From the NCBI GenBank assembly GCA_013298695.1, contig JAAFIS010000014.1, positions 1 to 36,510 of the forward strand: a DNA stretch of 36,510 bases. Direction: 5' to 3'. The notes under the pieces are model-generated. The model worked only from the letters and a program-made list of their open reading frames with translations. It searched no databases and had not been told where the DNA came from. Source of the stretch: Betaproteobacteria bacterium. Its GTDB lineage: Bacteria; Pseudomonadota; Gammaproteobacteria; Burkholderiales; Casimicrobiaceae. Made by a program: the position numbers and the translations under genes. Position 1 is the first letter of the stretch, and each line of letters begins with the position of its first letter. Shown here piece by piece: positions 3,414-36,510 of the stretch.

Positions 3414-3560
3414 TTGAAAATTTCCAAGTTCAGAGGCGGCGAATTTTCGGCAAGCGCTGCAGTGACGCGCTTTCAAGAATTCGCGGGAGTGCCCGTATTT
3501 TCGATGAAACTCGACATCAGCGGGCGAATCACACAACCTTTGACAGCTACCTACTGTTAA

Positions 3561-3645
3561 TCGCAATTTAATTGGGCAAATTGCGCTTTAATCTATTTTC
3601 TCAACTAACCACTAGATCTAGATGATCGCCCATTTAGATAGGCCT
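3561..3645. repeat. Paired-palindrome intergenic repeat, copy 1
   Basis: The left unit is centred at 3569 (GCAATTTAATTGGGC) and the right unit at 3636 (CGCCCATTTAGATAGGCCT), 67 bp apart. The arms facing inward (ATTGGGC and CGCCCAT) match the consensus best and the outer arms are decayed. The 46 bases between are AT-rich and unlike those of other copies. The pair fills most of the 245-bp gap between two minus-strand genes. No coding region or terminator with a T-tract is visible in this gap. Confidence 0.7.
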
Positions 3646-3658
3646 TCTAGACGCTAAG

Positions 3659-4222
3659 TTAACCGCGAGCGCTGGCACTTCTGCCCTTCTCCCAGAGCAC
3701 ATCGCCGCGCCCCGCTTCCCGATTCAAAACTCGCGACAAGACGAACGCCATGTCGCTCAAGCGGTTGAGGTAAATGCGCGAGTGTTCAGAAATTTTCTCG
3801 GTTTGCGCTGCATCCACCAGCGAGCGTTCGGCACGCCGACACACCGTGCGCACAAGATGGGTGAACGCAGCGGCGCGCGAACCACCGGGCAAGATGAAGT
3901 CTTTGAGCATCGGTAAATCGGCGTTCAGCGACTCAGTGAGTTGTTCAAGCCGCTCAACATGTGCGTCGGTGATCGCAAAATAACCCGGGATGGATAGCTC
4001 ACCGCCCAAATCAAACAAGTCATGCTGCACGTCGGTAAGTGCATCGCGAAGCGCATCAGGCAGCGGCTCGGTGAGCAACAGACCGACCACGGAGTTAAGT
4101 TCGTCAACGTCGCCCATCGCGGCAACACGCGGGTGACCTTTGGGCACTCGCGATCCGTCGCCAAGGCCCGTGGTGCCTGCGTCGCCGGTTTTAGTTGTAA
4201 TCTTTGACAGTCGATGTCCCAT
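3659..4222 (-). CDS. Cob(I)alamin adenosyltransferase, PduO type
   Basis: Transfers the adenosyl group of ATP to cob(I)alamin to make adenosylcobalamin. The 187-aa protein has the N-terminal ATP-binding signature TKTGDAGTTGL (residues 10-20), GDVDELNS (37-44), the helix with CRRAER (128-133), and YLNRLSDMAFVLSR (151-164). These are typical of PduO/MMAB, not CobA. The start is the ATG at 4222, where the family begins (MGHRLSKITT); 38 additional upstream codons are open but overlap the divergent hydratase gene and do not look like the family. No B12-dependent mutase is in the window, so its client enzyme is unknown. The divergent intergenic spacer to the next gene is only 19 bases. Confidence 0.93.
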   Translation of the reverse strand: MGHRLSKITTKTGDAGTTGLGDGSRVPKGHPRVAAMGDVDELNSVVGLLLTEPLPDALRDALTDVQHDLFDLGGELSIPGYFAITDAHVERLEQLTESLNADLPMLKDFILPGGSRAAAFTHLVRTVCRRAERSLVDAAQTEKISEHSRIYLNRLSDMAFVLSRVLNREAGRGDVLWEKGRSASARG

Positions 4223-12005: not shown

Positions 12006-12023
12006 CGTCAGCGCAACCGGTTA

Positions 12024-12110
12024 CGGTCCGATTAATTGGAGCGACACACGAATTTTTTATTGTTTTCGATAAACGACCGGAATCGCTTGTTTGCCCAAGT
12101 AATTTGGGCG
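12024..12110. repeat. Paired-palindrome intergenic repeat, copy 2
   Basis: The left unit TCCGATTAATTGGA (12027-12040) forms a 7-bp dyad with one G-T pair. The right unit is TGCCCAAGTAATTTGGGCG (12092-12110). Centres are 67-68 bp apart. The pair lies between the convergent GST and reductase genes, in a 143-bp gap with no other recognisable content and no T-tract beside the stems. Confidence 0.7.
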
Positions 12111-12148
12111 GTGGTGGCAAAAGTTGAACTGTCGCAGTTATCCGAAAC

Positions 12149-12871: not shown

Positions 12872-14157
12872 CGCGTAACTCGCCTCCAAAAGCTTGAACA
12901 AATCGCGGGATCGCGCGCGGCCTCAAGCGCTTCCCATTGTGGATAGAAACGTTTGAACATAACGCTACTCATGCGCGCGTCTTTCGCGGCATAAACCCGC
13001 CCGCCGACGTCAGCGACCATCGCATCGGCACGATCTAGCGCGCGGCGATCGGCGTCGTTCGGCCCCGGCACGTCCAACGCAACGGTCACGCCGGGCATCG
13101 GAAAGCTCATCAATCCCGGTGACGCGATGGCTGCGAACGATTTGATAACGGCGAGATAGCTGGCGACGCGGGATTCTCGCAAGTGCGAAAGTATCTTTGG
13201 CACACTCTCGCGCGCCGCCTCGCGGGGCACAACAAACTGATACTGAACAAACCCGCGTTTACCGTAAACGCGATTCCACGCGGTCACCGCATCAAGTGGA
13301 AAGAAAAACTGCCAGAGTGGAACGGTCTCTCGGCGCGCAGTGCGCATCGACTGAGCGCGGTAATACACAGAGTTAAACGCTTTCGCACTCCACCGCCCGA
13401 GCACCCAACCTGGCGCATCGACCGGCATGGTGAACTTCGCCGGCTGAGGTGCCAGCCATTCGTCCGGCCCGTCGCAATGCTCACCACGAAAGAAGACACC
13501 GCGCAACCCGGGATCAAGCGTGTCGATCCAACCAACGGTATAGGGCCACGCGCTACTCGCCTCATCGAGCGAAACGTAATCATCAATGTTGCCTGCACCG
13601 CCAAACACTGTCGTGTCTTGCGCAATACCGGGGCCGGGTAAGACACCCAGCTGAAGGGTCGCCTCTTCGATAAGTCCCGTTAAGCCAAGACCCGCAACCG
13701 TTGCGCCAAATGTTGGATCCGTGGTGCCGATTTCACGCGCACCGGTATCACTGCGACGCAGCTTTATCGATTGCACCGAGCGCCCAAAGGTGCCTGCAAT
13801 ATGGTGATTTTTTCCGTGGACATCGTTTGCAATGGCTCCGCCCACCGTCACATAGCGAGTTCCGGGCACCACGCTTGGAAACCAGCCGCGCGGCACCATC
13901 ACCTGCGCAATATCTGCAAGCGACGCGCCCGCCTCGCAGCGGAGCACGCCGTGCACCTCATCAAACGATATCAGCCGATCTCGGCGAAAGCTGTGCAGCA
14001 GCGCGCCGCCGTCGTTCACGCAGACATCGCCGTAGCTTCGACCCAAGCCGCGTGGCAAAAAATTCTTTGTCGGTAGCGCGTCGCCATCAGCAAATAGATG
14101 TTCATGCGTCGCGGAAAGTCCGCGCCCCCAAGGCTGATCGAGGGAGAGCGGCGTCAT
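12868..14157 (-). CDS. FAD-binding oxidoreductase, DprE1-like
   Basis: A 429-aa VAO/PCMH-fold flavoenzyme. PRGLGRSYGD (35-44) is the FAD-binding loop and IANDVHGKNHHIAGTFG (109-125) is the region that carries the FAD-contacting histidine in DprE1. The mycobacterial enzyme oxidises the 2'-OH of decaprenyl-phosphoryl-ribose. The start is the ATG at 14157, sharing one base with the UbiB stop (TGATG), and family similarity begins there. A longer frame to 14436 lies antisense to nothing but within ubiB and shows no family match. Translation of UbiB, this protein and the DprE2-like reductase is therefore coupled on one transcript. Confidence 0.88.
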   Translation of the reverse strand: MTPLSLDQPWGRGLSATHEHLFADGDALPTKNFLPRGLGRSYGDVCVNDGGALLHSFRRDRLISFDEVHGVLRCEAGASLADIAQVMVPRGWFPSVVPGTRYVTVGGAIANDVHGKNHHIAGTFGRSVQSIKLRRSDTGAREIGTTDPTFGATVAGLGLTGLIEEATLQLGVLPGPGIAQDTTVFGGAGNIDDYVSLDEASSAWPYTVGWIDTLDPGLRGVFFRGEHCDGPDEWLAPQPAKFTMPVDAPGWVLGRWSAKAFNSVYYRAQSMRTARRETVPLWQFFFPLDAVTAWNRVYGKRGFVQYQFVVPREAARESVPKILSHLRESRVASYLAVIKSFAAIASPGLMSFPMPGVTVALDVPGPNDADRRALDRADAMVADVGGRVYAAKDARMSSVMFKRFYPQWEALEAARDPAICSSFWRRVTR

Positions 14158-17022: not shown

Positions 17023-17254
17023 CAGATTTCAGCCGCTTCCTTTTGAAGCTGATTACGCTGTTTTATGCACATTGCGCGTCTTTACACAGATTATTTTGCC
17101 TTGTTATCACGCCTCGATAGACGTGCGGGCAATCAGCGGCAATTTGCAAAATCAGCGTTAAAAGCGTTGCATGAAATACGCAGACCGAGCCAGACGTTGA
17201 GCCGCTGTACGTACAAATTACGACCTGAGAGATATAAACAGCTTTTGAGCAATC

Positions 17255-17340
17255 TTCCCAATTCAATTGGGCGGTAACTTAATAAATTTTAATTATCAAT
17301 CACTACGATTTATTCATTTTTAGCCCAATTAGATTGGGCG
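17255..17340. repeat. Paired-palindrome intergenic repeat, copy 3 (best preserved)
   Basis: The left unit TTCCCAATTCAATTGGGCG (17255-17273) and the right unit AGCCCAATTAGATTGGGCG (17322-17340) are both near-perfect palindromes, centres at 17264 and 17331 (67 bp). The 48 bases between are almost only A and T. The element lies between the convergent ctaA and mogA genes and ends 26 bases before the mogA stop. Confidence 0.8.
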
Positions 17341-17365
17341 AAAAGAATAAAAGCTATTCGAAAAA

Positions 17366-20278: not shown

Positions 20279-20382
20279 TTGCGCGAATGTGAACTTGAGC
20301 TTCGCTGTGTGAGCGCTTTATGTGCTGCTCGCAATTTTAGTGCGCGCGCAGCGGCTTATCGTTGAGCGTCTTTTTTACTCTA

Positions 20383-20467
20383 GCCCCAGTTGCATTGGGC
20401 GTTGCGACCCTATTCTAATTTACCGCTATCGACGTTTTCGAAAGCGACAGCCCAATTGATGCGGCTT
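20383..20467. repeat. Paired-palindrome intergenic repeat, copy 4
   Basis: The left unit GCCCCAGTTGCATTGGGCG (20383-20401) and the right unit AGCCCAATTGATGCGGC (20449-20465) have centres 66 bp apart. As in other copies, the inward-facing arms are intact and the outward arms drift. It lies between pmbA and the TRAP genes on the same strand, 104 bases after the pmbA stop. Confidence 0.7.
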
Positions 20468-20538
20468 TTAGCGAGCGTAGATAGGAAAGCCCTAATAGCC
20501 GCACCGTTGACCCAGTTTCTAAAATTTCGGAAACGGCA

Positions 20539-20664: not shown

Positions 20665-21267
20665 ATGAACGGATTACTTGGCGTATCGCGCCTCATAGAT
20701 AAGATGAGCTTGCTCGTGGGCAAATCCACGATGTGGCTCATCCTCGTTGTTACGCTCATTAGTGCGATCAATGCAATCGTTCGTAAGGCATTTGACTTGA
20801 GCTCAAACGCTTGGCTTGAATTGCAATGGTATTTGTTTGCTGCCGTTTTCTTGCTGGGCGCGGGCTACGTTTTCCTCAAGAACGCTCACGTTCGAATCGA
20901 CTTCATCTCGTCGAGGCTCACCGCCCGCTCGCGAAATTGGATTGACATCGTTGGCATCATTTTGTTTTTGATACCGCTGTGTTTGATCGTCATTCGCCTG
21001 TCTTGGCCCCTCTTCTACAACGCGCTTACTTCAGGCGAAATGTCGCAAAACGCGGGAGGGTTGATTCGTTGGCCGGCCTATATGCTGATCCCGCTCGGAT
21101 TTACGCTGCTACTTCTGCAGGCGCTCTCTGAGCTCATCAAGCGGTTTGCCTTCTTGCGCGGCCACATTGCCGATCCGCTCGAAAGTGCCACCGAGAAATC
21201 AGATGAAGAAAAATTGCTTGAAGAGCTCGCTGCGGCGGCTGAAAAAGCAGGTCGGGGAGCTAAGTAA
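20665..21267 (+). CDS. dctQ: TRAP transporter small membrane subunit (DctQ)
   Basis: The 200-aa DctQ-type subunit of a tripartite ATP-independent periplasmic transporter, with four hydrophobic helices at about residues 20-40, 50-72, 92-115 and 137-157, and a charged, Glu/Ala-rich cytoplasmic C-terminus. The motif LELQWYLFAAVFLLGAGYVF (50-69) is typical of the family. The start is an ATG preceded by GGGAGGGA. The stop overlaps the dctM start by one base (TAATG). The matching receptor is probably the TakP-like protein encoded at 26097-27185. Confidence 0.92.
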   Translation: MNGLLGVSRLIDKMSLLVGKSTMWLILVVTLISAINAIVRKAFDLSSNAWLELQWYLFAAVFLLGAGYVFLKNAHVRIDFISSRLTARSRNWIDIVGIILFLIPLCLIVIRLSWPLFYNALTSGEMSQNAGGLIRWPAYMLIPLGFTLLLLQALSELIKRFAFLRGHIADPLESATEKSDEEKLLEELAAAAEKAGRGAK

Positions 21268-23123
21268 TGGTTGAATTCATCACCACTAATTTTGTGCCAC
21301 TGCTGTTTGTGGCGCTTTTTGCGTTTTTGCTCACCGGTTTCCCGGTTGCGTTTGCGCTCGCCGCCGTAGGCCTGGTCTTCGGTTTCATCGGCATGGAAGC
21401 GGGCTTGTTTCAAGGCACGCTGTTCCAAGCGCTTCCGCTTCGAATAGCCGGGATCATGCAGAACGACACCCTGCTCGCGATTCCCTTCTTCACCTTCATG
21501 GGGATCATTCTTGAACGATCTGGCATGGCTGAAGATCTGCTGGAAACTGTAGGGCAAGTGTTCGGCCCGGTTCGCGGCGGGCTTGCGATCGCCGTGATTC
21601 TCGTCGGCGCGTTACTCGCTGCGACCACGGGCGTCGTGGCCGCAGCAGTGATCTCGATGGGATTGATTTCGCTGCCAATTATGCTGCGCTACGGATACAA
21701 CCGAACGATCGCCACTGGAACCATCACCGCATCAGGAACCTTGGCGCAAGCCATTCCACCTTCGCTCGTGTTGATTGTGCTGGCCGACCAACTTGGTCGC
21801 TCCGTTGGCGACATGTACGAAGGCGCATTGGTGCCCGGACTGCTGCTCGTTGGCTTGTATTTGCTGTTCGTTGCGGTCGTCGCGATTGTTCGCCCGGCTT
21901 GGGTTCCGGCGTTGCCGCTTGAGGCACGAATCTATCGTGAAGACAACGGCGCATCGGGGCACAAATCATTGTTCGCGTTGCTCGCGATTGCAGCCGTTGC
22001 AGGCTTCGCATGGTCGCGTGTTCATCAATCGATCATCAATCCTTTGGTGCAGCGTGAACTTCCAGCACCGGGCGATGAAGTGCTCATTTTGTCGATGACG
22101 GTTGCATCGTTCGTTGCACTTGGTCTCGCGCTGCTCAATCGAGTTCTGCGATTGAAGCTCGTGTCGAAATTGGCTGAACAAGTCACCTTTGTTTTGATTC
22201 CGCCACTGATCTTGATCTTTTTGGTCTTGGGAACGATTTTCCTGGGCATCGCAACACCCACCGAAGGCGGTGCGATGGGCGCACTGGGCGCGTTAATCAT
22301 GGCAGGCGGCAAGCGTCGGTTGAATTTCTCGTTGCTCAAACAAGCGCTCGACAATACGGCGAAGCTCGCGTGTTTTGTGCTCTTCATTCTGATCGGTTCG
22401 ACCGTATTCAGCTTCACCTTCAACGCGGCGGACGGGCATCTGTGGGTTGAGCACCTCTTCCAAAAAGTACCGGGCGGACAACTCGGTTTCTTGATCGTCG
22501 TAAACATCCTCGTGTTCATTTTGGGATGCTTCATCGACTTCTTCGAGATCGCGTTCATTGTGATTCCGTTGCTCGCACCGGTTGCCGACAAAATGGGAAT
22601 CGATCTGATTTGGTTTGGCGTGATCATCGCCATGAACCTGCAAACATCGTTTTTGACGCCGCCGTTTGGATTCGCTCTGTTCTACCTGCGCAGCGTCGCG
22701 GCAAAAACTGACTATAAAGACCGAATCACCGGAAAGCTAATACCCGCGGTCACCACAACACAAATCTACAAAGGCTCAATCGCCTTCATCATTCTGCAAT
22801 TGATTATGGTGGGCGTTGTCATGTGGAAGCCGGGGCTTGTGATCGACAACATCGACAACAAAGCGAAAAACGTCGATACGTCAAACATCAAACTCGAAGC
22901 CGAAGGTCAAGGCACGCAGAAGAGCGATGAAGATCTGATGAAGTTGTTCGATCAGAAGCGTGAGCAGCAAAACCAAGAAAACATCAAAAACGATCAACAG
23001 CCTGCAAGCTCAACGCCCAATGGCAATGGGCAGTCAGCGCCAAATACGCCTCAAACAACTAAAGACGAAGATCCGATGAAAGCGCTAGTCGATTCAATAA
23101 AGAAGGACGAGGCTAAGAAGTAA
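21267..23123 (+). CDS. dctM: TRAP transporter large membrane subunit (DctM) with long polar C-terminal tail
   Basis: The substrate-translocating DctM subunit, with sodium-coupled import of organic acids. At 618 aa it exceeds the common 425-450 aa. Family motifs are LLTGFPVAFALAAVGL near the N-terminus, GASGTLAQAIPPSL-type loop (TASGTLAQAIPPSLVLI, around 153-169) and IATPTEGGAMGALGA around 330-344. An insertion with a long loop lies near residues 205-290. After the last helix (about residue 520) comes a tail of about 93 residues rich in Gln, Asn, Asp and Lys (for example QKREQQNQENIKNDQQ), with no hydrophobic segment. A strong terminator follows. Confidence 0.92.
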   Translation: MVEFITTNFVPLLFVALFAFLLTGFPVAFALAAVGLVFGFIGMEAGLFQGTLFQALPLRIAGIMQNDTLLAIPFFTFMGIILERSGMAEDLLETVGQVFGPVRGGLAIAVILVGALLAATTGVVAAAVISMGLISLPIMLRYGYNRTIATGTITASGTLAQAIPPSLVLIVLADQLGRSVGDMYEGALVPGLLLVGLYLLFVAVVAIVRPAWVPALPLEARIYREDNGASGHKSLFALLAIAAVAGFAWSRVHQSIINPLVQRELPAPGDEVLILSMTVASFVALGLALLNRVLRLKLVSKLAEQVTFVLIPPLILIFLVLGTIFLGIATPTEGGAMGALGALIMAGGKRRLNFSLLKQALDNTAKLACFVLFILIGSTVFSFTFNAADGHLWVEHLFQKVPGGQLGFLIVVNILVFILGCFIDFFEIAFIVIPLLAPVADKMGIDLIWFGVIIAMNLQTSFLTPPFGFALFYLRSVAAKTDYKDRITGKLIPAVTTTQIYKGSIAFIILQLIMVGVVMWKPGLVIDNIDNKAKNVDTSNIKLEAEGQGTQKSDEDLMKLFDQKREQQNQENIKNDQQPASSTPNGNGQSAPNTPQTTKDEDPMKALVDSIKKDEAKK

Positions 23124-28972: not shown

Positions 28973-30256
28973 ATGAGTCCCACCACCATTCAGCTAATCG
29001 GCGCCACACTTTTCGCGCTCGCCATCGTTCACACGTTTTCCGTTAAATATTTTGAGCGGCTTGCTCATCGCTATCCGGCGCACGCAGGCAGTTTCCATTT
29101 CCTAGGCGAGGTCGAAGCAGTATTCGGATTTTGGGCGCTTGTTTTTGTCGCGTTCAAATTTTCGATCACAGGCAAAGCGGCTACCGTTGACTATCTCGAA
29201 GGGCGAAACTTCACGGAGCCCATGTTTGTCTTCGTGATTATGGTGATCGCCGCGTCGAAGCCCATCGTTGATCTCGCAGGTTTTGTGGTGCGCGCGTTGA
29301 CCCGCGCCACCCCTGTGAAAGCTCGTGCGAAGCCTCAAGTGTTCTATTTTTTGGTCCTCGCACTGGTTCCGCTGCTCGGCTCGTTCATCACCGAGCCCGC
29401 AGCCATGACACTGGCCGCTCTTTTGTTGCGCGATCACTTCATGTCGAAGAACGTGTCAACAAAGTTTAAGTATGCGACGGTTGGTGTTTTGTTTGTGAAC
29501 ATCTCGATCGGCGGCACACTGACCGCTTACGCCGCACCGCCGGTTCTTATGGTGGCGCAAACTTGGCAGTGGACAACCTCGTTCATGCTCGCTGAGTTTG
29601 GTTGGCGCGCGGCGCTCGCGGTCGCAGTTAACGCCATCGCGATCACATTGTTTTTCGCACGCGAGCTACGCCATTTGGAATACCACGCAAGCGAGGGCAC
29701 GCGGATAGAAACGCCATGGACCATTGTGTTTGTTAGCCTGTTGTTCTTAGCCGGCGTCGTGGTCTTCGCGCATTACGACAGCGTGTTCATGGGCATCTTT
29801 TTGTTCTTCTTGGGATTCGCCACCGCGTACGGAAAATACCAAGAGAGACTGGTGTTGCGCGAGGCGCTGATGGTGGGATTTTTTCTTGCGGGGCTGGTGG
29901 TGCTCGGCGCACAACAAGCTTGGTGGTTGCAGCCGCTGCTCACCAAAATGTCGCCCGATGCGGTGTATTTCGGCGCGACAGCGCTCACCGCGATTACCGA
30001 TAACGCGGCGATCACGTATCTGGCGTCCCTGGTGCCCAATCTTTCCGACGAATTTAAATACATGGTCGTTGCTGGCGCGGTGACCGGTGGCGGACTCACG
30101 GTGATCGCCAACGCGCCAAACCCTGCGGGCTACTCGATCCTGAAAGGAAACTTCCCTGACGGCGCGATTGGCGCGGGTGGATTACTAGTGGCTGCGTTAC
30201 CGCCGACGCTAGTTGCGGTGTTCACGTTTTGGGTGATGCGAGCTTTGGGAATTTAG
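28973..30256 (+). CDS. Putative Na+/H+ antiporter (PF07399-type)
   Basis: A 427-aa, roughly 11-helix membrane protein. Recognisable segments are HFLGEVEAVFGFWALVFV (43-60), GSFITEPAAMTLAALLLRDH (around 136-155), GGTLTAYAAPPVLMVAQ (180-196), TALTAITDNAAITYLASLVP (335-354) and VTGGGLTVIANAPNPAGYSIL. These fit the putative Na+/H+ antiporter family named in PF07399; transport has mostly been inferred for that family. Its TDNAAITYL loop echoes the DN loops of the preceding protein, so both belong to the wider ion transporter group. The ATG at 28973 has no obvious ribosome site. Confidence 0.85.
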   Translation: MSPTTIQLIGATLFALAIVHTFSVKYFERLAHRYPAHAGSFHFLGEVEAVFGFWALVFVAFKFSITGKAATVDYLEGRNFTEPMFVFVIMVIAASKPIVDLAGFVVRALTRATPVKARAKPQVFYFLVLALVPLLGSFITEPAAMTLAALLLRDHFMSKNVSTKFKYATVGVLFVNISIGGTLTAYAAPPVLMVAQTWQWTTSFMLAEFGWRAALAVAVNAIAITLFFARELRHLEYHASEGTRIETPWTIVFVSLLFLAGVVVFAHYDSVFMGIFLFFLGFATAYGKYQERLVLREALMVGFFLAGLVVLGAQQAWWLQPLLTKMSPDAVYFGATALTAITDNAAITYLASLVPNLSDEFKYMVVAGAVTGGGLTVIANAPNPAGYSILKGNFPDGAIGAGGLLVAALPPTLVAVFTFWVMRALGI

Positions 30257-30266
30257 CTTTAGTATT

Positions 30267-30357
30267 GATCGCCCGGTATTACTGGGCGATCAAATAATTT
30301 ATGTAGTTTTTCAATTATCAGAGTTTTTAGTCGTATCGCCCACGTTAGTTGGGCGAT
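30267..30357. repeat. Paired-palindrome intergenic repeat, copy 5 (longest stems)
   Basis: The left unit has arms GATCGCCCGGTA (30267-30278) and TACTGGGCGATC (30280-30291): 12 pairs with one G-T. The right unit has ATCGCCCAC (30335-30343) and GTTGGGCGAT (30348-30357). Centres are 67 bp apart (30279 and 30346). The bases between are AT-rich. The element starts 10 bases after the antiporter stop and precedes the glyA leader. Confidence 0.8.
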
Positions 30358-30658
30358 GTGTCTAATAGTTGATAGCGTTTTCATTCGCTACGTTTCTATA
30401 ATTCGAGACAGGTACGTAACTGGCGTAGTGCTGCAATGAATTCGCAGCGTTAGGGGGAGTCACCCTCAGGAAGCGTGCCGTTGTGAAAGTGTTTCCGAGT
30501 TTCGAAAGGGCGTCATGAGTTTTCTTGAACGTCTTTATCGACCGGATCGTCATCGAAAAGACACGCTTCGCAACTCCCGCCGTTCGCCTGGGCATGCGCT
30601 GCACACTTCCAAAAAGTGCGCAGTGCCGAACTGCATGTACTGCAAAGGAAAAACGCCC
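30358..30658 (+). promoter_or_regulatory. Leader and probable promoter of glyA
   Basis: TATAAT at 30397-30402 is a consensus -10 box but has no convincing -35 at the right distance. A reading frame from ATG 30515 runs in frame into glyA and would add 48 residues with no family match. It contains the cluster [11 protein letters not shown] and may be chance. CTG..CACTT (30599-30608) pairs with AAGTG..CAG (30614-30623), a hairpin 35 bases before the start. I see no known riboswitch signature. Confidence 0.35.
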
Positions 30659-32872: not shown

Positions 32873-32924
32873 GTAGGGTGGGCACATACGAATCGAAACG
32901 GTGGGCACGGGGTGCCCACCCTAC
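32873..32924. repeat. REP-like palindromic repeat (GTAGGGTGGGCAC type)
   Basis: GTAGGGTGGGCAC (32873-32885) pairs perfectly with GTGCCCACCCTAC (32912-32924). A second direct copy of GTGGGCAC (32901-32908) makes an alternative tight hairpin with 32912-32919 across three G. This word pair is common as a dispersed repeat in many bacteria. It fills the gap between the Sel1 protein gene and the orphan antitoxin gene and ends 9 bases before the latter. Confidence 0.8.
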
Positions 32925-35904: not shown

Positions 35905-35937
35905 GGAGTTTGCATTTTGGCGTGGTCCACAAACTCC
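35905..35937 (+). terminator. Possible terminator hairpin after the Bug receptor gene
   Basis: GGAGTTTG (35905-35912) pairs with CAAACTCC (35930-35937) across 17 bases. Only three T follow, so it is a weak terminator candidate. It lies 50 bases after the stop codon. Confidence 0.4.
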
Positions 35938-35945
35938 TTTGCTAA

Positions 35946-36032
35946 GCGCCCATAACGTATGGGCGCGCCGGTCTTTATGAGCAAGCGTCAATAAATATTA
36001 AAAATTCAATCTTCGCCCAATCTAATTGGAGC
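35946..36032. repeat. Paired-palindrome intergenic repeat, copy 6
   Basis: The left unit GCGCCCATA (35946-35954) and TATGGGCGC (35958-35966) surround a 3-base centre. The right unit is CGCCCAATCTAATTGGAGC (36014-36032). Centres at 35956 and 36023 are 67 bp apart, with AT-rich sequence between. It lies between the convergent Bug receptor and dusA genes, ending 16 bases before the dusA stop. Confidence 0.75.
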
Positions 36033-36048
36033 AGAAACGCTAAAGCTA

Positions 36049-36510
36049 CTAGCCAGTGAGTGCGTCAAGTAATGGTTGGCGATGATCATCGTAATCGCTC
36101 TTAAACGGCATTGCACGCCTGAGCAGATCCGGGTTATTTTCAAGTAACAATTTCGGATCAGAAAGCATGCGACGCCATGCCTTGCCGCCGACTTCACCAG
36201 CGAAGAGCCCAAGCATATGGCGAGCAATGTCACGCACTCGTGTCGGGTGGCGATGCGTTTGTGTAGTGGCGATTTGCTCACGTGCGTACACGATCATTTT
36301 TTCAACAACGGCTTCCCGCGTAGTGAGCGGTGTGCCGTAGAGCGCGGTTTCAACTTTCGCGAGCACGTAGCTATCGTGATATGCGGCGCGGCCGAGCATG
36401 ATGCCGTGCGGCACCGACTGTAGGCGCGGGCCTGACCGCGCTTCGCTAGCGAGCGCGGTCAGGCCCGCGCCTACAGAATTGCTAAGTACATCAACGCACT
36501 GCGCGACCGT
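36049..36510 (-). CDS. dusA: tRNA-dihydrouridine synthase A, C-terminal part (5' end outside window)
   Basis: Reduces uridines in the tRNA D-loop using FMN. Only the last 153 codons are in the window. HGIMLGRAAYHDSYVLAKVE is the end of the TIM barrel (phosphate-binding GR), and ARHMLGLFAGEVGGKAWRRM with the following helix is the DusA C-terminal helical domain. The frame has no stop from 36510 to 36049. Between CVDVLSNS and VPHGIML lie about 20 extra codons, produced by a 59-bp palindrome at 36418-36476. Homologues as I recall them have no insertion here. A GTG at 36414 could also serve as a start for a C-terminal fragment, but that is less likely. Confidence 0.85.
   Translation of the reverse strand, partial: TVAQCVDVLSNSVGAGLTALASEARSGPRLQSVPHGIMLGRAAYHDSYVLAKVETALYGTPLTTREAVVEKMIVYAREQIATTQTHRHPTRVRDIARHMLGLFAGEVGGKAWRRMLSDPKLLLENNPDLLRRAMPFKSDYDDHRQPLLDALTG
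36418..36476. repeat. 59-bp REP-like palindrome inside dusA
   Basis: The 24-base arm at 36418-36441 (CTGTAGGCGCGGGCC, then TGACCGCGC) is perfectly complementary to 36453-36476. The 11-base centre contains TCGCTAGCGA, itself a perfect palindrome, so the whole folds with a single bulged base. The dusA frame reads through it as VGAGLTALASEARSGPRLQ. Confidence 0.9.

Follow-up and report, generated by a model that had tools for sequence, protein, structure and literature searches.

Evenly spaced ~130-bp dyad elements along the chromosomes of a Casimicrobiaceae genus, candidate sites for a symmetric DNA-bending or DNA-wrapping complex

What are the paired palindromes that recur between the genes of this stretch of DNA (hereafter the window, 36,510 bp of the genome G000), and why is the distance within each pair so constant? 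A first-pass annotation of the window had described six such loci, with 66–68 bp between palindrome centres, and had left two readings side by side, a REPIN-like mobile doublet or two sites read together by one protein complex. Our results show that the palindromes of each pair belong to one larger dyad of ~130 bp, of which they are the conspicuous part. These results support the second reading and extend it from two sites to the whole dyad, which a protein would recognise as a unit. We propose, with a probability of roughly 0.6, that the elements are architectural sites, placed at regular intervals, at which one rigid complex with dyad symmetry bends or wraps DNA; here we infer protein binding, bending or wrapping, selection on the spacing and a topological role.

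All six loci are present in the window, and three of them do lie between convergent genes, as had been noted (Table 1). The palindrome pattern, CGCCCAAT-n3-ATTGGGCG, has eight matches there with at most three mismatches, against 0.37 expected from shuffled sequences.

Table 1. Dyad elements of the window, the parts of element 3, and one gene elsewhere in G000 that carries a site. Positions refer to the window unless a contig is named; scores in bits are those of the weight matrix (PWM); R1 is a sequence-only model of the element.
Feature	Position	Strand or context	Remarks
Element 3, full dyad	17236..17359	convergent gap, ctaA (COX15-CtaA, +) / MoCF_biosynth gene (-)	PWM 83.4 bits; R1 match 17236-17358
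Element 3, left outer box (AACAGCTTTT)	17237..17246	+	conserved logo columns -16 to -9
Element 3, left palindrome	17255..17273		2 mismatches to CGCCCAAT-n3-ATTGGGCG
Element 3, centre (consensus TTTATCGATAAA, degenerate in this copy)	17292..17303		logo columns 37-48
Element 3, right palindrome	17322..17340		1 mismatch
Element 3, right outer box (AAAAGCT)	17349..17358	+	mirrors left outer box
Element 1	3541..3664	tandem gap, Peptidase_M3 / Cob_adeno_trans, both -	65.6 bits; site also in G002 orthologous gap
Element 2	12006..12129	convergent gap, GST (+) / short-chain dehydrogenase (-)	59.8 bits; site also in G002 orthologous gap
Element 4, weak (copy at 20383)	20363..20486	tandem gap downstream of pmbA	24.4 bits
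Seventh copy, weak	22995..23118 (palindrome 23014)	3΄ end of ORF 21267-23123	30.1 bits; left half good, right half poor
Element 5	30249..30376	tandem gap, Na_H_antiport_3 (+) / SHMT (+)	79.6 bits; R1 match 30249-30376; site in G012 orthologous gap
Element 6	35928..36051	convergent gap	54.2 bits
Selenoneine synthase SenA homologue	G000 C12:289351-290613 (L047:9351-10613)		phmmer 1e-62 to 8k5i; among the strongest in-gene sites

The family is abundant far beyond the window. Over the whole 4.08-Mb genome the palindrome has 433 matches with up to three mismatches, against 20 for the pattern read backwards, and 243 against none with up to two. A sample of 836,510 bp (C1:1–400 kb, C12:1–400 kb and the window, ~20% of the genome) was analysed in detail, with genes called by a home-made codon-usage caller. 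A symmetric weight matrix was built that presumes a distance of 67 bp between the palindromes; the 836 kb used for its refinement were also those in which sites were counted. It gave 156 matches of at least 20 bits against none in the reversed sequence used as control, or 155 sites after one shifted duplicate was dropped. At uniform density, which the extrapolation presumes, the genome would hold ~755 sites.

The distance between the two palindromes is nearly invariant. Among the 64 doublets of the sample, tallied over centre distances of 64–70 bp only, 45 are spaced at 67 bp, 11 at 66 bp and four at 68 bp, with one each at 64, 65, 69 and 70 bp, so that 60 fall in the annotated range of 66–68 bp; when every palindrome-pair distance up to 400 bp is counted, 67 bp is again the maximum and no second peak appears 10 bp away. 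The inward arms are better kept than the outer ones, as had been claimed (GGGC at 93–96% per position against 77–89% for the outer CCC, in 45 doublets that were themselves selected on both palindromes). Alignment of the doublets gives the full layout, which runs from the outside inwards through an outer box cAGCTTT, about six weak bases, the palindrome (A/T)(A/T)CGCCCAATTnAATTGGGCGAT, about seven weak bases and a TTTA block to the centre TTTATCGATAAA, and then continues as the mirror image. The DNA between the palindromes had been described as AT-rich and free to differ from copy to copy; the A/T blocks are indeed there, but the sequence is not free, as it holds these blocks and a conserved symmetric centre. 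The conserved outer boxes, CAGCTTT and AAAGCTG, lie beyond the coordinates first annotated, and in the logo and the weight matrix the conserved columns cover about 124–138 bp around TCGA (logo columns 41–44). The best columns of the outer box and centre, neither of which played any part in choosing the doublets, reach 77–86%, and the spacer columns are nearly without information, a contrast that neutral decay of a single master copy would not produce. A gap-free alignment of 35 elements was obtained, partly by construction since the matrix presumes 67 bp, and the distance between palindromes varies by about one bp, with outer boxes, A/T blocks and centre in register. The columns that flank the palindromes are A/T and carry no GTAG or CGTC tag.

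Palindromes of this kind could form hairpins, and elements enriched in convergent gaps might be bidirectional transcription terminators or other transcript-end structures. We consider this distinctly unlikely. Covariation of paired positions, within the palindromes and across the dyad, was very weak or absent in 45 elements (z of 1.6, 1.6, 1.3, -1.1, -0.6 and 0.5). With 110 elements of G000 it amounted to 1142 of 2420 pairs where 1095.5 were expected (z 2.7), an excess that is near noise since a deliberately shifted pairing reached z 3.1 in G005; four other species gave z of 0.3–1.8. So little covariation points to recognition of duplex DNA rather than of a hairpin. As, in addition, no Rfam family matched the window at its gathering score, a hairpin or RNA function was rejected. 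Intrinsic terminators (a GC stem followed by a T run) were discarded on stem use and lack of enrichment: the window has scarcely more terminator-like matches than shuffled sequence (62, against 31.6 + 25.9 in shuffles), and an element palindrome serves as the stem in only two of seven elements (3562–3585 and 30265–30293). Nor would a terminator account for the rigid spacing between the palindromes, or for the 29 sites of at least 20 bits that lie at least 60 bp inside genes.

The arrangement of the sites along the chromosome also bears on our proposal. In the sample of G000, 115 of the 155 sites lie in gaps, which make up 13% of the sequence; the remaining 40 are inside called genes, and the earlier statement that all copies lie in gaps does not survive outside the window. 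On this 20% of the genome, both the peak at 66–68 bp and the frequencies in genes and gaps leave the doublet standing. Among gaps of at least 80 bp, convergent ones are preferred (32 of 59 occupied) over tandem (56 of 232) and divergent ones (19 of 84), with Fisher P of 2e-5 and 2e-4. Neighbouring sites are on average 5397 bp apart with a coefficient of variation (CV) of 0.53, against ~0.99 for random placement; only six of the 146 intervals are shorter than 1.5 kb where 35 were expected, and one is longer than 15 kb where nine were expected. The intergenic sites alone still show a CV of 0.60; placing them at random in gaps, with weights for gap type, gives 0.94 ± 0.08. Relatives behave in the same way, with mean spacings of 4.9 kb in G002 (CV 0.58, n = 40), 10.1 kb in G005 (0.42, n = 25), 8.3 kb in G007 (0.54, n = 13) and 11.4 kb in G012 (0.37, n = 14), and against exponential gaps the P values of the five species range from <1/20000 to 0.017. 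The CV of G005 leaves out one interval of 105 kb and becomes 1.36 with it. This interval (G005 C1:110–215 kb; L149–L153, L186) is the only long hole seen, and the ten proteins tested there include TraC, a bacterial topoisomerase, a Tn3-type transposase, a DNA methylase and SNF2-type helicases; it probably holds an integrative (conjugative) element free of sites. In G000 a perfect family palindrome (C18:241091–241109) is found downstream of gyrA, ~70 bp from its last C-terminal repeat match, which may be coincidence given the density of sites.

The sites inside genes fit into this pattern. An intergenic site lies within 1.5 kb for 38% of random in-gene points but for none of the 29 sites that are well inside a gene, and the mean distance to an intergenic site is 4386 bp for these sites and 2562 bp for the random points; in-gene sites fill long intervals that lack a nearby intergenic site. 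How did they get there? A homologue could be aligned across eight of 49 in-gene sites (G000, G002 and G009, at least 18 bits), all eight weak to middling at 20–38 bits, and at most two extra residues were found; in three of these, close orthologues align without gaps and have no detected site, for one gene in eight other species. The SenA homologue, with a 61-bit site, aligns through the site to the solved SenA with single-residue gaps only, and a second 61-bit site falls in an ORF without a Pfam or PDB match and may lie outside any gene. The host genes of ten in-gene sites were compared with Pfam, nine of them with a match; six sites lie inside the matches, five with a change in domain length of -2 to +5 aa and one, in an amidohydrolase, with +44 aa, which is not clear. 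Judged by these alignments, the in-gene sites that could be checked appear mostly to have arisen by substitution and not by insertion.

These observations bear directly on the mobile doublet of the first-pass annotation. REPINs are likewise made of two inverted palindromic units at a fixed distance and are present in hundreds of copies, mostly between genes, as described in PMC3116915, and the spacing of our doublet is close to the 71 bp of the GI REPINs of P. fluorescens given there. Moreover, the genome does encode a true RAYT transposase (NF047646, 191.8 bits), and in the genus Y1_Tnp is found in 15 of 17 genomes, the two without it (G008 and G016) having few or no sites. The RAYT of G000, the only Y1 transposase of the genome, is nevertheless flanked on both sides by a REP of its own, different and GTAG-tagged (GTAGGGTGGGCACCCCGTGCCCACC; G000 C1 ~100066–100090 and 100733–100757, with a full copy in the window at 32900–32923 on the minus strand), and not by dyad sites, the nearest of which is 2.06 kb away; the expected tie between a RAYT and the repeat is thus missing. 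REP and REPIN palindromes bear an adjacent GTAG or CGTC tag (title of PMC3733652), and this RAYT with its GTAG-tagged REP is an ordinary REP/RAYT system that coexists with the dyad sites; the 12-mers of the flanking REP occur ~6 times in 836 kb, an unexceptional count. Across the genus, which has 44 Y1_Tnp matches, an element was found within 500 bp at one of the 16 loci examined (G007 C90:3822–4172, L281, with a strong dyad site of 94 bits 420 bp away), and outside the genus 15 of 23 genomes have Y1_Tnp and none has sites.

The copies themselves show no trace of copying. In all five species tested, column-shuffled spacers resemble each other as much as the real spacers of different copies do; in G000 their identity is 0.326 against 0.327 after shuffling (110 of the 155 elements, at least 40 bits), and the best pair reaches 0.61, with 0.55–0.63 under the null. 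In addition, 40 of 155 sites are in genes and nearly all of the checkable ones are without insertion, many positions are conserved between species, the spacing is even, and the apparent integrative element is free of sites. The dyad sites thus differ from REPINs in having no GTAG tag, no linkage to RAYT, no copying and in-gene copies made by substitution (with one unclear exception), as well as in their conserved centre and outer boxes and their even spacing. Non-cognate REP and absence of copying led us to reject a REPIN/RAYT origin, which is now very unlikely. A family of MITEs or transposon ends with target immunity would also produce even spacing and few close pairs, as seen here, and would explain the long inverted repeat, but it is extremely unlikely: the copies have no common spacer ancestry, the alignable in-gene sites are substitutions apart from the unclear case of +44 aa, the 105-kb interval of G005 would have been a good target and holds no sites, and sites are common to species at about 75–80% protein identity. 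MITE insertion was rejected on the lack of copying and the in-gene alignments. Another repeat altogether provides the commonest 12-mers of the 836-kb sample, CGTTCGTGGTGA (23 occurrences) and GCTCACCACGAA (20), with GTCGAACCATGA (15) as a possible partner, and has a weak match in the window at 13479–13492 on the minus strand.

How widely are the sites distributed? Model R1 detected sites in 16 of the 17 genus genomes, and the 23 genomes of other genera had none; its counts are low in G003, G007 and G012 (two matches each) and in G008 (six), and it had none in G016. The few matches in G007 and G012 are due to a different dialect. The pattern GGGC-N23-TCGA-N23-GCCC was searched in 64 genomes of the family and is frequent in G000 (77 matches, control 0), G005 (169, 0), G006 (118, 0), G013 (116, 2) and G011 (111, 0), with 0–7 matches in the other 12 genomes of the genus and at most three in other genera. 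A broader pattern, applied to 300 genomes of the order, gave at most seven matches (control 1) outside the genus, which is weak evidence since it is clear in only two of the six genus genomes included (G005 with 137 matches and control 0, and G010 with 32 and 3; G000 had 15 and 9). In 100 kb each of G017, G027, G030 and G038, the matrices estimated for single species of the genus detected no motif, the exception being two matches of at least 20 bits against none with the G002 matrix in the AT-rich G038. A de novo scan for spaced dyads was silent elsewhere, a weak negative as it failed to pick up the known sites of G002 and those in 120 kb of G000; an unrecognised dialect outside the genus is possible. 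G027, from another family of the order, has an unrelated spaced dyad in C1:1–100000, GTAT-N37-ATAC, with 21 occurrences where 1.1 are expected.

Within the genus the architecture is constant and the letters differ. Motifs were re-estimated for G000, G002, G005, G007 and G012, and an attempt for G016 gave none; the other eleven genomes were judged by R1 and the patterns. G000 uses GGGCGAT half-sites with the centre TATCGATA, G002 uses GGGCTA and G005 GGGCTT with AAAGTCGACTTT, and in G012 and G007 the half-sites become GTCGTT without a shift in offset, while the outer box AACAGCTTTTT and a GTCGAC centre are kept. The positions of the sites are often shared. Comparison of orthologous gaps, which the first-pass annotation had proposed, showed that presence or absence of a site mostly agrees between species: in 14 of 14 gaps between G000 and G002 (four with and ten without a site), in ten of 11 between G000 and G005 (two with, eight without) and in 21 of 23 between G002 and G005 (two with, 19 without). 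Some gaps are discordant, and not every site is common to species, even if many positions are conserved and shared sites occur between species with about 75–80% protein identity. The gap between ctaA and the MoCF gene (element 3) holds a site in nine of 12 genomes checked, that is, in eight species besides G000, one of which (G010) has a weak copy; none was found in G013, G014 and G016. The gap was confirmed by its flanking genes in six of the nine and deduced from the distance to pmbA in G001, G009 and G011, and the site of each of the five species with an estimated dialect scores best with that species' own matrix. The weak element 4 has an orthologous site in G002 and G009, and none was found in the eight other genus genomes among the 11 that have the gap. 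In a tree of PmbA, in which several forks are moderately supported, G008 and G016 stand as sister to the other genomes, and the two GTCG species are not each other's closest relatives. G008 and G016 have small genomes (2.5–2.6 Mb), few or no sites and no Y1_Tnp.

Dialects are also known from the DNA uptake sequences (DUS) of the Neisseriaceae, genome-wide motifs whose letters differ between related species and which occur as inverted pairs in gaps as well as inside genes, according to PMC3630211. A genus-specific uptake or self-recognition tag of this DUS/USS-like kind, kept by transformation and recombination, would explain the dialects and the absence of sites from the apparent integrative element about as well as an architectural function does, and in-gene sites that arise by substitution would fit it too. 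We nonetheless regard it as unlikely. DUS are short signals of 10–12 bp with a CTG core and without a long dyad (PMC3630211), whereas here the information is spread over a ~130-bp dyad of fixed architecture with a tolerance of one bp between the palindromes, and the preference for intergenic and convergent positions, together with the placement of in-gene sites far from intergenic ones, points to a local, distance-dependent function.

Which protein, then, would read an architectural site of this kind? One symmetric, DNA-bending or DNA-wrapping complex would fit the fixed spacing, the single dyad, the alternating GC and AT blocks and the base-specific half-sites, and the even spacing, the convergent preference and the in-gene substitutes fit a local function that reaches over several kb, such as relief of torsion or anchoring of loops. 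Among known proteins, DNA gyrase is the leading candidate binder on account of size, symmetry and location, though we consider it doubtful. The published E. coli gyrase motif, as given in PMC6379681, is 130 bp long and symmetric, with periodic arms and a cut with a 4-bp stagger, and BIME-2 is an intergenic family cut by gyrase (PMC6379681). Our ~130-bp sites resemble this motif, the Mu site and BIME-2 in their length, their one dyad, their alternating GC and AT blocks and their location downstream of or between genes. Their preference for convergent gaps matches the places where positive supercoils concentrate, as stated in PMC8360656. Several features do not fit gyrase. The GC content of the elements has a period of 9.4–9.5 bp in G000, G005, G012 and G007 (P 0.001–0.008) and of 7.45 bp in G002, with nothing significant at 10.5 bp, so that the observed ~9.45 bp differs from the 10.5–10.75 bp expected (10.75 bp for the E. 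coli motif). The GGGC or GTCG half-sites are base-specific and carry 37–90 bits (the higher values rest on 14–27 elements and are inflated), far more than the degenerate E. coli motif; the even spacing and the species dialects set the sites apart from that motif as well, and a switch of dialect would be odd for so conserved an enzyme. When GC profiles were compared with the annotated Mu gyrase cut site, the fraction of Mu positions that score as high was 0.009 with the profile of G000, 0.031 with G002 and 0.089 with G005; the match is suggestive for the first two and not for the third, and weak overall. GyrA C-terminal repeats do not track the sites and are unremarkable in this genus: 15 of the 17 genus genomes have six matches, G004 has seven on two contigs and G013 none despite many sites, and genomes of other genera have six to eight, or none in three of them.

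A dedicated, genus-specific nucleoid protein or a loop-forming (SMC-type) protein would have the same architectural function with another binder. We hold this idea tentatively, somewhat short of an even chance, and rate it as equally or more likely than gyrase. It agrees with the restriction of the sites to one genus and with strong base-specific half-sites that switch between GGGC and GTCG while the outer boxes and the centre stay. On the other side, no candidate gene was found, and H-NS, the only nucleoid family searched, does not track the sites (six of 17 genus genomes).

We propose the following working model for these architectural sites. Each element would be one duplex recognition site of ~130 bp, symmetric about a single dyad axis, and a rigid and symmetric protein complex would occupy it as a unit and bend or wrap the DNA. 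Selection on spacing would keep a site every ~5 kb in G000 and G002, and every 8–11 kb in G005, G007 and G012; intergenic positions, above all convergent ones, would be preferred, and an in-gene site would evolve where no intergenic one is near. The role of the system is probably chromosome architecture or torsional management, with one hard-wired complex per interval of the size of a supercoil domain, placed where converging transcription accumulates positive supercoils. In its most complete form, to which we give slightly less than an even chance, the system would be a chromosomal ruler: several hundred long dyad sites, one per 5–11 kb, each assembling one DNA-wrapping complex, with spacing under selection and a half-site code that is switched between species of one genus while the architecture stays constant.

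What would such a system mean for the biology of these bacteria? Among chromosome-wide recognition sequences for one protein, matS, parS, KOPS and Chi are about 8–16 bp long and few or skewed in distribution, and to our knowledge none of them is an evenly spaced dyad of ~130 bp. The open-access literature yielded papers on REP, BIME, DUS and gyrase and none on evenly spaced ~130-bp dyad sites, so that, if our proposal is true, these bacteria would have a type of hard-wired and regularly spaced architectural system for which that literature gave no bacterial precedent. Bacterial supercoil domains measure roughly 5–10 kb, and their boundaries are generally held to be stochastic and not fixed by sequence. 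Evenly spaced ~130-bp sites common to several species would be a case in which the spacing is written in the DNA, and who binds them and what sets the distance would become directly testable questions. The dialects offer a natural experiment, in which the sites of each species should be bound by that species' own protein. Irrespective of its function, this family suggests that selection acts on distances along a bacterial chromosome, coding sequence included.
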